From assembly GCA_030836535.1 (NCBI GenBank), contig JAURPT010000121.1, positions 1 to 40,677 on the forward strand: a DNA stretch of 40,677 nt, in the 5' to 3' direction. The stretch is from Alphaproteobacteria bacterium. Lineage in GTDB: Bacteria > Pseudomonadota > Alphaproteobacteria > SMXS01. The position numbers and the translations under genes were made by a program. The notes under the pieces are model-generated. The model was not told the origin of the DNA and ran no database searches. It saw only the letters and a program-made list of their open reading frames with translations. Below, in pieces: positions 6,715-13,356 of this stretch; the first letter of the stretch is position 1, and every line of letters starts with the position of its first letter.

Positions 6715-6942
6715 CGGCAGGTGCCCGTCATTAAGAGACAATACAAACGCAGAAGGGCCAAAACGACTACTGGTGACCGCAATACAGGATCGTGAGGCTA
6801 AACTGTATCCCCAGGCGCGTCCAGCGAGCTCGTACACCGAGTGCCAGGCTTGCGCTGTATGGGGCTTTGGGCAACACTTACGCTTTGTAGTTCCGGGCGT
6901 CCTCGGCGCTGCCACATAGTACATATTCCGGAAGCCGCCCGT

Positions 6943-7731
6943 ATGATCATCAGCCGCAAACACCGGTTTGCATTTATCCATATACCCAAATGCGCAGGCA
7001 GTTCCGTTCGAGAGCCATTACAGCCTTTGGATGACTGCCCGGAACCCTTTTACGGGGTGCATGACCATCCGGAGCTGGGCTCGATTGACCGAGGACATTT
7101 GCTGCTGTCAGTTCTGCGGCAGTATTTTCCAACAGAATTTGAGTTGCTCCAGGCATATCAATCTTTCGCTGTTTTGCGAAACCCGTCTGAACGGTTTCCA
7201 TCATCCATGAGCCAGCACCTGATGATGAATGGTGACAAGCCAATTGAGGACCTTGCTGCACCAGAGCTGTATCCCCGCATAGACGCGGTGGTGGCGGCTC
7301 TGGAAAGCAAGCCCGCGGACTTTCTGCCGCTGGAGCTTACGCATTTCCATCAGCAGCGGCGTTACGTTTACGTGGGTGGCGAGCAAGTCATCAAAAACCT
7401 CTACAGGACGGATGATATGGCGGCCTTGAGGCGCGATATTGCGACAATATTGCCAGTAACGGTGCCGGGCGCACGACGGAAGAACGGAGCCCTGTTTTAC
7501 AAAGACACGCTGGACGGCAAACTGGCCGGCATGGTTACGCCCACTGCCGCGCGGTATTTTCGCGACGTCATTCCAGCTCGTGTCGTCGCATGGGTCAAGC
7601 GCAGTATGTATGTGACCAGAGACCAGCGCTGGTCGGATGTTTTCAATTCCCCAGACGTTCAGAAGTTCGTGTTATCCTACTACAAGGAAGACTTTGACCT
7701 CTATGAGAGCCTGGCAGGAGCCCGACCATGA
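6943..7731 (+). CDS. Sulfotransferase family 2-type protein
   Basis: The protein is 262 residues from the ATG at 6943, chosen for the GGAAG ribosome-binding site at about 6930 and because the first residues lead straight into the conserved strand. The 5'-phosphosulfate-binding motif FIHIPKCAGSS is at residues 11-21. The 3'-phosphate-binding motif LRNPSERFPSS is at residues 78-88 (R79, R84, S87/S88). Such enzymes transfer sulfate from PAPS to a hydroxyl or amine on a carbohydrate, lipid or small molecule. The stop overlaps the start of the M20 amidohydrolase (ATGA), so the two are translationally coupled. PAPS can be supplied by the nearby cysD-cysNC operon. Acceptor unknown. Confidence 0.8.
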   Translation: MIISRKHRFAFIHIPKCAGSSVREPLQPLDDCPEPFYGVHDHPELGSIDRGHLLLSVLRQYFPTEFELLQAYQSFAVLRNPSERFPSSMSQHLMMNGDKPIEDLAAPELYPRIDAVVAALESKPADFLPLELTHFHQQRRYVYVGGEQVIKNLYRTDDMAALRRDIATILPVTVPGARRKNGALFYKDTLDGKLAGMVTPTAARYFRDVIPARVVAWVKRSMYVTRDQRWSDVFNSPDVQKFVLSYYKEDFDLYESLAGARP

Positions 7732-8960: not shown

Positions 8961-10316
8961 TCAATACCGTTTGGAGGCCCCTTTGCAGGTTGTCGGCGGC
9001 AATTGGTTATAGCCCCGGTCATAGTAAAAGGCGGGGGCGTTGTTTCCCAGGCCGATACCGCGCACAAGGAAGGCCTGCGCCAGGTCAGCGAAGCCTTTAC
9101 CCGATTTGGTCTTCTCTAAGTAGGAGGCCGTGAAGTAGTCTCGTACATTCAGCCGCAACATGGTGCAGGAATTGGCCGCCAGGGCCGTCGTCATCACCAT
9201 ATCGTTATAGAAGGCGGCATGGCGACGGTGGTTTTCTTTGGGCGGCGTTCCGCAATTCACGAGGCTGAAATTATTGAGCCAGTCGATGGCATTGGCACTT
9301 AGCCCGCTCATGCAGGAGCGGTCCTCCATCACGGCGTGGCACACATTGCCCTTGGCGGCCCGATAGTTGCCGCTGTGGAATTTGTCTCGGGATAGCGTGC
9401 CCGTGGCGGTATCCCAGCCAACGCCCCAGACGCCGCAGGTGCCGCCAGAACCCTCCGACCCATGGGCATTGACCATCTGACAGGCCATGGCCAGCCCGCC
9501 ACGAATGGCGGTGCGATGGGCGGCAATGGCGCGGTTAATGAGCTGCCATTGCCTGCGATTGCCAGTCAGGATTTTGGAGACCTTTTTGTCATGGGCATCG
9601 AACTGGCGCTGCACATATTGGTTATAGCGGATCTTCCAAAGGTTCATGTTATTACCGGTATATTTCGTGAGGTCCGGCTTAGGCGGCACCTTGGTGAATT
9701 TGGGGCTGACATAACGCACATTGCAGCCCGCTTTTTTGAGGGCATCGCCCGTTTTATGGGCGCTGGGTTCATGCCAGATGCCGCTTTGGGCCAGAAAGTC
9801 GATCACAAGCGCATCGCAGCCTTTGTCGATCTGCGGGCATTCTGTCAGACCGTCAATTTCTTCACCAAAGGGTGTTGGGCGACCTTTGGGCGCTGAGGCA
9901 GGCTCGGGTATTTCACCCCAATCCTTGTCAGAGAGTTCCTTGGAGGGTTGCAGTGCACAATGCGTGGCCAGCCAATAGACATAAGCATTGCCTGCCTGGG
10001 TAAAGAGCAGGGCAGGGGTGCTGCCATCTGCGGGCAGGTTCGCCAAGTTAATGACCCAGCCGGGCCAGTCCTCTGCGTTGACGGTTTCGCCATCAATCAC
10101 GGGTTCCAGTTCCACGCCTTCTGTTGGGCCATTGGCCAGCAGGCGCACGTCAATAGGCCCGGCGCAGACCGGTGCCTGGAAGAAGGCAACGAAGCTATTG
10201 GTCAACCCGCACGGAAAACGGTCCTGGTCATAGAGGATGCCGCTGGAGACCGGCCCGCCGGCGATGATGGACTGCATCAGGGGGGGCGTCATTCTCATTG
10301 ATCTCGCCATCAACAT
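8961..10316 (-). CDS. Downstream-frame half of a split dockerin protein; possible caspase-like (clan CD) domain
   Basis: This 451-codon frame has no convincing start of its own. Its first residues (APLMQSIIAGG after frame correction) complete the second dockerin-like EF-hand of the upstream frame. It continues for about 1.3 kb without a stop and is cysteine-rich. A segment CDALVIDFLAQ...DALKKAGCNV, a His motif MVNAHGSEGSGG and, about 50 residues later, a Cys motif DRSCMSGLSANAIDWLNN resemble the strand order and His/Cys dyad of caspase-like peptidases. That reading is inference from motif shape only. The simplest view is one secreted protein spanning 8961-11466 with a +1 shift at the C run 10280-10286. 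Alternatives are a pseudogene or a base-calling error. Confidence 0.6.
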   Translation of the reverse strand: MLMARSMRMTPPLMQSIIAGGPVSSGILYDQDRFPCGLTNSFVAFFQAPVCAGPIDVRLLANGPTEGVELEPVIDGETVNAEDWPGWVINLANLPADGSTPALLFTQAGNAYVYWLATHCALQPSKELSDKDWGEIPEPASAPKGRPTPFGEEIDGLTECPQIDKGCDALVIDFLAQSGIWHEPSAHKTGDALKKAGCNVRYVSPKFTKVPPKPDLTKYTGNNMNLWKIRYNQYVQRQFDAHDKKVSKILTGNRRQWQLINRAIAAHRTAIRGGLAMACQMVNAHGSEGSGGTCGVWGVGWDTATGTLSRDKFHSGNYRAAKGNVCHAVMEDRSCMSGLSANAIDWLNNFSLVNCGTPPKENHRRHAAFYNDMVMTTALAANSCTMLRLNVRDYFTASYLEKTKSGKGFADLAQAFLVRGIGLGNNAPAFYYDRGYNQLPPTTCKGASKRY

Positions 10317-11466
10317 TCACGTCGGCAGCTGCAGCACAGCCAACCTCGCGATAGGCCTCCATCGTGCCTGGACCGCTGGTGAGCTTGTTGAGCAAACCAG
10401 CATCAGCTGTGTCGATGGTGCCGTCCTCGTTGATATCGCCCAGCAGATAGGCGGGTGTCATGCCAATCGGCAGGTTGCCAATGTCCGGCCGCTGGTTGTG
10501 GGCGGCGCTGGTGGGTGTTTGTTCTGTGTAGTCTTCTTTCGATTGAGCACCGCGCAGGGCCACCAGAGATTGGATTTGCTGTTCGACAAGAAACGGGTCG
10601 GTTTGCGCCCGTGGCATCATCAGGGGCAGGACATACCGTGCCAGCACGATGCCAGCATTGTATTCTACAGTCTCACGCGCCCGGCGCACCTGGAGCTGGC
10701 GAAAGCGGCGTTCGGCGTGGCTCATACGGGGTTTGCTGTCTTCAACATGGGTGGGCTGGGTGCTGTGAGCAGGCGGCGTGGTGCTGTGGTCATGCCCCCC
10801 ATGACCTGACTGATCACGACCGTCATCTGGCTGGTCGATGACCACAATGGGTGGTGTGGAGTCGGTTTGAGGTTGACGATCTGTGGGGTCGTGCTCGGGT
10901 GTTATTTGAAGGGCTGGTGTATGGGTGGGCGTGGGCTCAGATTCCTGTGTCACGTCGATGGCGGGCGTGTTTGTCTCCAGCGCCTCTTCACTTGTGATGT
11001 CTTCTGGGTTTGTGGCGTCTTCTGGCTCAACAATGATAGCCGTAGTGCTACCCGGCACTTCACCTGGTATTTCAGCAGGCATTTCAAATGTGCCTTCGAT
11101 GGTCCCTTCGGTCGTGGTGGTCGTCACCGTTTCTGTGATGATGGTGGTGCTGTTCGGGCCTTCGATGGTCGTGACCGTCTGATCGACTGTTTCGGTGGGG
11201 GTGGTGGTTACCGTCAGGCCGTTTTCCAGTGTCTTGCTGGTCGTTTCACCGACCGTGGTGGCGCTGGATTCTGTGACATCAGTGACAGTGCCCCTTTGCT
11301 GAACCGGTGTTGTCGGTGCGGAAAAAGGGGCAAGTGACATGGACTCAGAAAATACGGAGGGAGGCAGGTCTGTTTCCTGCCCAAGGGCCGGGTTTACCGC
11401 CAGGAACGCGGCCAGCGCGACCGAACAAGTGGTAAAAGACGTCGTGGAACCATAACTCTTACGCAT
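10228..11466 (-). CDS. Secreted Thr/Pro-rich protein with dockerin-like EF-hand pair (upstream-frame half)
   Basis: The start used is the ATG at 11466, preceded by AGGAAGGGG. It is followed by a signal peptide ending near ALGQ. About 200 residues of Thr/Glu/Pro-rich low-complexity sequence follow, with repeated TVTTT and TETV runs and a His-rich HGGHDHS patch, typical of an extracellular linker. A basic helical segment comes next. Near the end there is a dockerin type I-like repeat, GDINEDGTIDTADAGLL, and a second one, ADVNVDGEINENDA, which is cut off where the frame diverges at the C run. Past that point 18 unrelated codons lead to the stop. Dockerin-like Ca2+ loops bind cohesins or stabilise secreted proteins. 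Divergent from the CsgG-like gene. Confidence 0.75.
   Translation of the reverse strand: MRKSYGSTTSFTTCSVALAAFLAVNPALGQETDLPPSVFSESMSLAPFSAPTTPVQQRGTVTDVTESSATTVGETTSKTLENGLTVTTTPTETVDQTVTTIEGPNSTTIITETVTTTTTEGTIEGTFEMPAEIPGEVPGSTTAIIVEPEDATNPEDITSEEALETNTPAIDVTQESEPTPTHTPALQITPEHDPTDRQPQTDSTPPIVVIDQPDDGRDQSGHGGHDHSTTPPAHSTQPTHVEDSKPRMSHAERRFRQLQVRRARETVEYNAGIVLARYVLPLMMPRAQTDPFLVEQQIQSLVALRGAQSKEDYTEQTPTSAAHNQRPDIGNLPIGMTPAYLLGDINEDGTIDTADAGLLNKLTSGPGTMEAYREVGCAAAADVNVDGEINENDAPPDAVHHRRRAGLQRHPL
10280..10286 (-). other. C7 run where the reading frame changes by +1
   Basis: The minus strand reads GAC GCC CCC CCT in the upstream frame. Skipping one C gives GCC CCC CTG ATG CAG, which extends the second EF-hand naturally (A-P-L-M-Q). 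Proline CCC-C sites are known to be prone to +1 slippage. A homopolymer length error in the assembly would look the same. Confidence 0.7.
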
Positions 11467-11612
11467 GATTGATACCCCTTCCTGCCTATGAAGGTAGCGT
11501 ATCATCAAGGCAAGGCTTCTCGCCAGTTTTCCCGGATATCGTCGGGTAACATTGCCGGTAGGGGCCGTGCTGGTCTAAAGTGACAGGGCTCAGTGAGGGG
11601 GGGTAGGTGCCA

Positions 11613-12644
11613 ATGCGAGAATACGGAATCTCACTTTCAGTCGGTGTTTTGGTTGCAGGTGTCATGGCGGTTGTTGCTGCCCAGCCCGTATTTGCACAAG
11701 ACAGCGTATTTACAGTCGATACAACCGCAGAGACGGGGTTTTTCACGCCGGATTTCGGTCTGCAGGACAACGTGCGCGAGCTTGAAGGCCCCAAGCGCAC
11801 GGTGGCTGTTGGCCGTGTCAATAGCACCGGGTCTTTCGCTGCCTTCTTTGGCGACTGGGATCAGGGCGGCGGTTTGGAAGCCATCATGATGGATGCGCTG
11901 GTGCAATCCGGCCAGTTTGAGGTGGTTGACCGTGCGGCCATAGATGCCGTGCTCGCCCAGCAGCAAATGACAGAATCCGGCATGACAGCAGGCGGCACCG
12001 GCCCGCGCGCGGGGCGGCTTAAGGCTGCACAATTACTGGTGATTGGTTCCATTACGCAAGTAGACCTCGACACCAAGGGTACGGACGTGAATATCGGCGT
12101 CGGCATCGGCCGTATGGGCCAGGCCGGGGTCGGGGCTGCCTTTCGTTCTGGTACGCTGGTGATGGATGTGCGGCTAGTGGACACAGAGACGTCGCAGATC
12201 ATCAATACGTTCAGCGCCCGGCAGAAGGTCAAGGATCGCTCGACGTCGGTGGATGTGACCTATGATGTCGTCAGCTTCGGGACCACGTCCTTCTGGAAAA
12301 CCCCGCTGGGCGATGCCATGCGCGAGCTGATCGGCAATCTGACGCAGCAGATTGTTGCGGCCAGCCAAGGCGTGCCCTGGTCGGCTAAGGTAATCGACTT
12401 CAGCGACGGGCGCCTGTTTATCAACTCGGGCGCCAGAAGCGGCCTGCAGGTGGGAGATGAGTTTGCCGTTAAACGGGTCGCCCGCGTGTTCACCGACCCC
12501 GATACAGGTGAAGTGCTTAGCACCCGGTACAAAGAGCTGGGTACAGTCAATATCATCGTTGTGGAAGACAGGATGGCTGAAGGGCTCTATGTTCCTGTCT
12601 CGACCATGGCGCCTGAACTGGGCGACATGGTAACGATGGACTGA
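11613..12644 (+). CDS. CsgG-family outer-membrane-associated protein
   Basis: The protein is 343 residues from the ATG at 11613; a GTG two codons earlier is also possible. A purine-rich AGGGGGGG stretch precedes it. A signal peptide ends near AQPVFAQ with no lipobox cysteine, unlike E. coli CsgG, which is a lipoprotein. The core matches CsgG: KRTVAVGRVNSTG, LVQSGQFEVVDRAAIDAVLAQQQ, AAQLLVIGSITQV and VMDVRLVDTETSQI. The C-terminal 90 residues add a domain with GVPWSAKVIDFSDGRLFINSGARSGLQVGDEFAV, seen in CsgG-like proteins outside curli operons. No other curli genes are present. A role in export or envelope assembly is plausible but unproven. It is divergent from the dockerin-like protein. Confidence 0.82.
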   Translation: MREYGISLSVGVLVAGVMAVVAAQPVFAQDSVFTVDTTAETGFFTPDFGLQDNVRELEGPKRTVAVGRVNSTGSFAAFFGDWDQGGGLEAIMMDALVQSGQFEVVDRAAIDAVLAQQQMTESGMTAGGTGPRAGRLKAAQLLVIGSITQVDLDTKGTDVNIGVGIGRMGQAGVGAAFRSGTLVMDVRLVDTETSQIINTFSARQKVKDRSTSVDVTYDVVSFGTTSFWKTPLGDAMRELIGNLTQQIVAASQGVPWSAKVIDFSDGRLFINSGARSGLQVGDEFAVKRVARVFTDPDTGEVLSTRYKELGTVNIIVVEDRMAEGLYVPVSTMAPELGDMVTMD

Positions 12645-12714: not shown

Positions 12715-13356
12715 TTGCTGAAGAAGCTACCGCTTGATGTGCGCTACGCGGTCATGGCCAAGACCCACCGCCGTCTTTGGGAGGCAGCTGGCGTTGTTTT
12801 TGTTCATATTCCCAAGGCAGCTGGTACCAGCATTGGCAATGCCATTTACGGGCGACATATCGGGCATTCTTCTGCCCGGCAGATAAATTTGATGTCCCCC
12901 GGTGCCCTGCAGCAATTGCCGAGTTTTGCTTTGTCGCGCAATCCATGGGACCGGGCTGTCTCTGCCTATCAATTTGTCATACAGGACGGTACTGAGCATA
13001 TCAAACCACAGCGACAAGCACTTTATGACACGCCGGCCTTCAGCAGTTTTGAGCGGTATGTTGAAGAGTGGCTAGCGGTGACAGATCTTGAAAAGGCGCG
13101 CCCTGCTTTCAGACCGCAGCAACTCTATGTCACTGACAAGCGCGGCTCGCTCCTCGTTAACCGGGTGTTACCCATGGAAGACATGCATGCCGTGCAGCAA
13201 TATCTGGAAGAGACCATGGCAGAGCCTGTGGAAATCAGACATCTGAACCGCAGTAAAAGAGGCGATTACCGCGACTACTACACATCGCCCCGCCTGCGAA
13301 ACATCGTGGGTGATGTTTACAGTCGCGATGTCACCCTGTTTAATTACGACTTCTAA
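12715..13356 (+). CDS. Second sulfotransferase family 2-type protein
   Basis: From the TTG at 12715 the protein is 213 residues. The PAPS-binding motif FVHIPKAAGTS is at residues 29-39. The 3'-phosphate motif ALSRNPWDRAVSAYQ follows near residue 70. The C-terminus has the family pattern LNRSKRGDYRDYYTS...VYSRDVTLFNYDF. The start is uncertain: TTG 12715 has no ribosome-binding site, while the frame is open upstream to an ATT at 12694 that follows ACAGGAAC, and an ATG at 12754 would still keep the motif. It would transfer sulfate from PAPS to an unknown acceptor. It lies 22 bases before the glutamine amidotransferase gene and probably shares its transcript. Confidence 0.78.
   Translation: MLKKLPLDVRYAVMAKTHRRLWEAAGVVFVHIPKAAGTSIGNAIYGRHIGHSSARQINLMSPGALQQLPSFALSRNPWDRAVSAYQFVIQDGTEHIKPQRQALYDTPAFSSFERYVEEWLAVTDLEKARPAFRPQQLYVTDKRGSLLVNRVLPMEDMHAVQQYLEETMAEPVEIRHLNRSKRGDYRDYYTSPRLRNIVGDVYSRDVTLFNYDF

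Follow-up and report, generated by a model that had tools for sequence, protein, structure and literature searches.

Frame change at a run of seven C in a dockerin gene of a draft alphaproteobacterial genome

A gene for a putative secreted dockerin protein changes reading frame at a run of seven C (C7) in the window, by which we mean the whole 40,677-nucleotide stretch of an alphaproteobacterial contig that was analyzed. Frame change and run coincide more closely than chance would produce. The change most probably reflects a run-length indel within one gene, introduced by a recent mutation or by an error of assembly. The first-pass annotation had offered three options for this site, and a recent disruption or an assembly error both fit, with similar breaks found in other genes of the same assembly; a regulated frameshift found no support.

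The dockerin gene and its C7 run

The reading frames and features considered here are the following, with the type of support in parentheses.

10228..11466, minus strand: upstream ORF, 412 aa from the ATG at 11466, with a signal peptide, a Thr/Pro-rich stalk, a helical stretch, and a type I dockerin (profile match; start and signal peptide by inspection)
10285..10443, minus strand: type I dockerin (PF00404) in the zero-frame reading, with the F-hand calcium loops DINEDGTIDTAD and DVNVDGEINEND (above the Pfam cut-off)
10280..10286, minus strand: run of seven C, the site of the reading-frame change (sequence and codon statistics)
8961..10279, minus strand: downstream part in the +1 frame, comprising the end of the second F-hand and then an orphan Cys-rich region of ~440 residues with 13 cysteines (codon statistics, translation)
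11607..12644, plus strand: divergent neighbor, a CsgG-like gene (50% identity to its orthologue in G002, a genome from another genus of the same family)

By inspection, the upstream ORF likely starts at the ATG at 11466, with AGGAAGGGG upstream of it. The second calcium loop had been described as ending at the C run, and DVNVDGEINEND indeed stops a single G before it. The homopolymer (C7, 10280-10286) is part of the coding sequence and sits where the frame switches. Past the run, the zero frame yields the tail DAVHHRRRAGLQRHPL and terminates at a TGA (10230-10228), 16 codons after the CCT. Skipping one C gives A-P-L-M-Q-S-I-I-A-G-G, as had been proposed, and we confirmed that this +1 frame stays open to the stop codon at 8963-8961.

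Codon usage places the change at the same position. A likelihood model trained on 15 genes of the window and blind to the run gave 10282 as the best switch position and 10264-10299 as the 100:1 interval, in agreement with the earlier claim that the dockerin protein is split at the seven C. The assembly contains 47 C/G runs of seven or more in 2.68 Mb, from which the chance of finding such a run inside the switch interval is ~7.5e-4.

The +1 frame also completes the second dockerin F-hand, in the middle of which the zero-frame product stops. The PF00404 match scored 28.2 bits in the zero frame and 30.9 bits read through (cut-off, 22.9), and the profile coverage grew from 49 to 53 of the 57 positions. 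Compared with the helix that follows the first loop, the helix after the second loop scored 8 in the +1 frame and -23 in the zero frame; this likeness is not unique, as the +1-frame helix was only among the best 6 of 440 11-mers.

One ancestral ORF or two overlapping genes

The two ORFs likely represent one ancestral, continuous ORF. The downstream part had no family match in profile searches, and it carries 13 cysteines and no signal peptide of its own; by count, these cysteines together with the one before the junction make an even total. Across the downstream region, its own frame holds only the terminal stop, and the other two frames hold 15 and 23. A downstream frame free of internal stops implies that the lesion is recent or unreal. 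Codon usage alone barely separates the possibilities: in the six-frame model, the advantage of one shifted ORF over a pair of overlapping genes was only 4.5 bits. The case for one ORF is carried by the dockerin and cysteine arguments.

That narrow preference leaves room for two overlapping genes, in which the downstream ORF would start inside the dockerin region via translational coupling. ATG codons are available at 10316-10292 (the mechanical downstream ORF extends back to 10316) and inside the LMQ near 10276, and a survey with GeneTack puts the share of gene overlaps to be expected among orphan singletons at one third (PMC3711429). However, inspection revealed no clear ribosome-binding site ahead of these ATGs, the product would be Cys-rich and yet lack a signal peptide, and completion of the dockerin helix by the +1 frame speaks against a separate gene. 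We consider this arrangement quite improbable.

No homologue of the downstream half emerged from the searched collections of genomes, phages, plasmids, and viral contigs; weak matches in G246 (E 0.0014) and G460 (E 5.7e-4) fell outside credible genes and were taken as chance. Because no homologue of the junction was found, an intact relative was not seen, which counts against an indel. The PDB sequence search returned only noise, and an AlphaFold model of the dockerin read through into the C-terminal region, computed without homologues, had a pLDDT of 33 and was unusable (the query for folding and searching was the read-through of 10443-8961). For the stalk, nothing was recovered from the genome and viral contigs searched.

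Breaks at other G:C runs and the cause of the frame change

The draft genome (G000) contains at least three further genes with recognizable domains whose frame is broken at a G:C run of 7-9.

L047:365-1910 (G000:C152): polysaccharide flippase (PF13440), cut at G7, with the profile in pieces 1-77 and 78-293
L051:909-2099 (G000:C164): nucleotidyltransferase (PF14907), cut at C9 with a second frame change at G6, with the profile in pieces 2-133, 134-176, and 168-249
L037 near 1500 (G000:C113): histidine kinase, recognized by its QLTGG/AHDFNN motif rather than by a Pfam match, cut at G9 within that motif

The scan for frame switches covered 20 stretches (~394 kb), the window, and the loci of C/G runs, and used a six-frame model, a strand-independent scan having proved too noisy. 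Thirteen other intragenic C/G runs of seven or more in G000 keep frame, so error is not universal in this assembly, a point that counts against the indel. In G005, a genome of the same family assembled into two contigs, all 14 such runs keep frame. Broken intragenic runs thus number 4 of 17 in G000 and 0 of 14 in G005 (about p 0.08), a contrast that is no more than suggestive. The six-frame model also gave some high-scoring switches away from runs, e.g., at L068 18427 and L071 4216. Visual inspection suggested gene boundaries for the apparent switches in L038 and near A/T runs, which were left out of the count. Separately, the ATG of a glycosyltransferase is immediately preceded by a run of nine (L019:1501-1509, G000:C71), the length of which could influence the ribosome-binding site there.

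A run-length indel, be it real or introduced in the consensus, accounts for all four broken genes together. We favor it because the codon switch falls on the run, the dockerin match lengthens on reading through, and the cysteine count becomes even, and because three further genes are broken at G:C runs and the intragenic runs of G005 all keep frame. A single gene would then encode the signal peptide, the Thr/Pro stalk, the type I dockerin, and the Cys-rich region of ~440 residues, with the length of C7 breaking its frame. Translation as sequenced would give 412 residues that end in an incomplete second F-hand followed by a short foreign tail; only rare slips would allow the region downstream of C7 to be read. 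The run may have changed length via slipped-strand replication, as a recent mutation or a minority state of the population; alternatively, the consensus of this 183-contig draft may be in error. The GeneTack survey attributes singleton frameshifts to sequencing errors, recent indels, or overlapping genes (PMC3711429). Like them, the present case shows a change of frame that no homologue shares; it differs in being located on a C7, in an assembly where G:C runs also interrupt three other genes.

The first-pass annotation had also pointed out that CCC-C proline sites favor +1 slippage, and this agrees with the literature: in an Escherichia coli reporter, CCC-C slipped at up to ~1% at codon 2 (PMC4519876). 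Such a slip-prone site is present at the frame change, within GCC CCC CCT (10287-10279), and both halves are open and coding, two points in favor of a programmed +1 ribosomal frameshift producing a short dockerin form and a long form. We nevertheless consider such programming very improbable. Slippage of ~1% is at the level of error, and in the cell it is suppressed through m1G37 in tRNA-Pro (PMC4519876). Unlike in programmed +1 frameshifting of the prfB type, there is no stop codon in the A site, the zero-frame TGA coming only 16 codons past the CCT; by eye, no upstream stimulator resembling a Shine-Dalgarno sequence was seen; and the RNA is less folded than its shuffles (z +1.37 and +1.82). 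The short form would, moreover, terminate in mid F-hand. Five other genes with an in-frame C7 on the coding strand keep frame, a comparison in which low-level slippage would not show. Unrelated genes are cut in a similar way, two of them, the flippase and the kinase, at G runs, for which a mechanism based on CCC-C proline codons is inapplicable. The GeneTack survey asks for a site conserved across homologues (PMC3711429); none of the collections searched held a homologue for this comparison. The regulated production of two forms thus finds no support, given the lack of visible stimulators, the unremarkable RNA, the C7 genes that stay in frame, and the breaks at G runs.

Phase variation is a special case of the run-length indel, in which the G:C runs would act as contingency loci, turning four genes (those of the dockerin protein, the flippase, the nucleotidyltransferase, and the kinase) on or off through changes in run length. 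Phase variation at poly-C and poly-G is known (PMC3711429), and three of the four genes broken at G:C runs are surface or secretion related. However, it requires mixed run lengths, of which the sequence bears no sign, and most such runs in the genome are in frame or between genes. Runs of seven are also short for contingency loci. We regard this form of switching as unlikely, and equally so the broader idea that short G:C runs serve as frame switches across a set of surface and sensing genes of this lineage, the dockerin gene included.

The protein and its locus

Read as one indel-bearing gene, the locus is predicted to encode a secreted, calcium-binding protein of the cell surface or the extracellular space. 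It shares with type I dockerin proteins (PF00404) the two F-hand calcium loops, secretion, and a score above the Pfam cut-off. It differs from them in that the C-terminal region is an orphan, no catalytic domain is recognizable, and the cohesin partner expected of a cellulosome-type dockerin was not found, the genome (~96% complete) yielding no match to PF00963. The dockerin was the only one found among 10 genomes of the order. As to affiliation, CysN shares 78.6% identity with Paracoccus proteins, which points to Alphaproteobacteria.

A related arrangement occurs in G002: opposite the CsgG-like orthologue lies a divergent gene whose product carries the same secreted stalk. That gene encodes a 2656-residue RHS/PT-HINT protein (L099:1111-9081, G002:C6). 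The Thr-rich stalks of the two proteins gave a Smith-Waterman score of 230, against a maximum of 163 for local shuffles, and on this comparison of sequences they are homologous. BLASTP did not show the homology of the stalk with that of G002, probably because of its biased composition. The loci thus have in common a signal peptide, a Thr-rich stalk, and a divergent CsgG-like neighbor, and differ in the body of the protein, with RHS repeats and a HINT domain in G002 and the dockerin and orphan region in the window. The downstream ORF had no similarity to the RHS protein of G002.

Elsewhere in the window, a G7 at 11597-11603 immediately precedes the annotated start of the CsgG-like gene and is probably part of its ribosome-binding site. 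Sulfotransferase-like ORFs (PF03567) lie at 6841-7731 and 12715-13356; the former matches only positions 2-96 of the 252-position profile.

These results caution that frame changes at C runs in draft genomes should not be taken for programmed frameshifting, and they offer a test, namely, to examine all runs of the same assembly together with an independent, better assembled relative. If mixed run lengths were true of these genes, they would provide a lead on phase variation in an uncharacterized lineage. The locus itself presents one secreted N-terminal stalk joined to two unrelated bodies in related genera.
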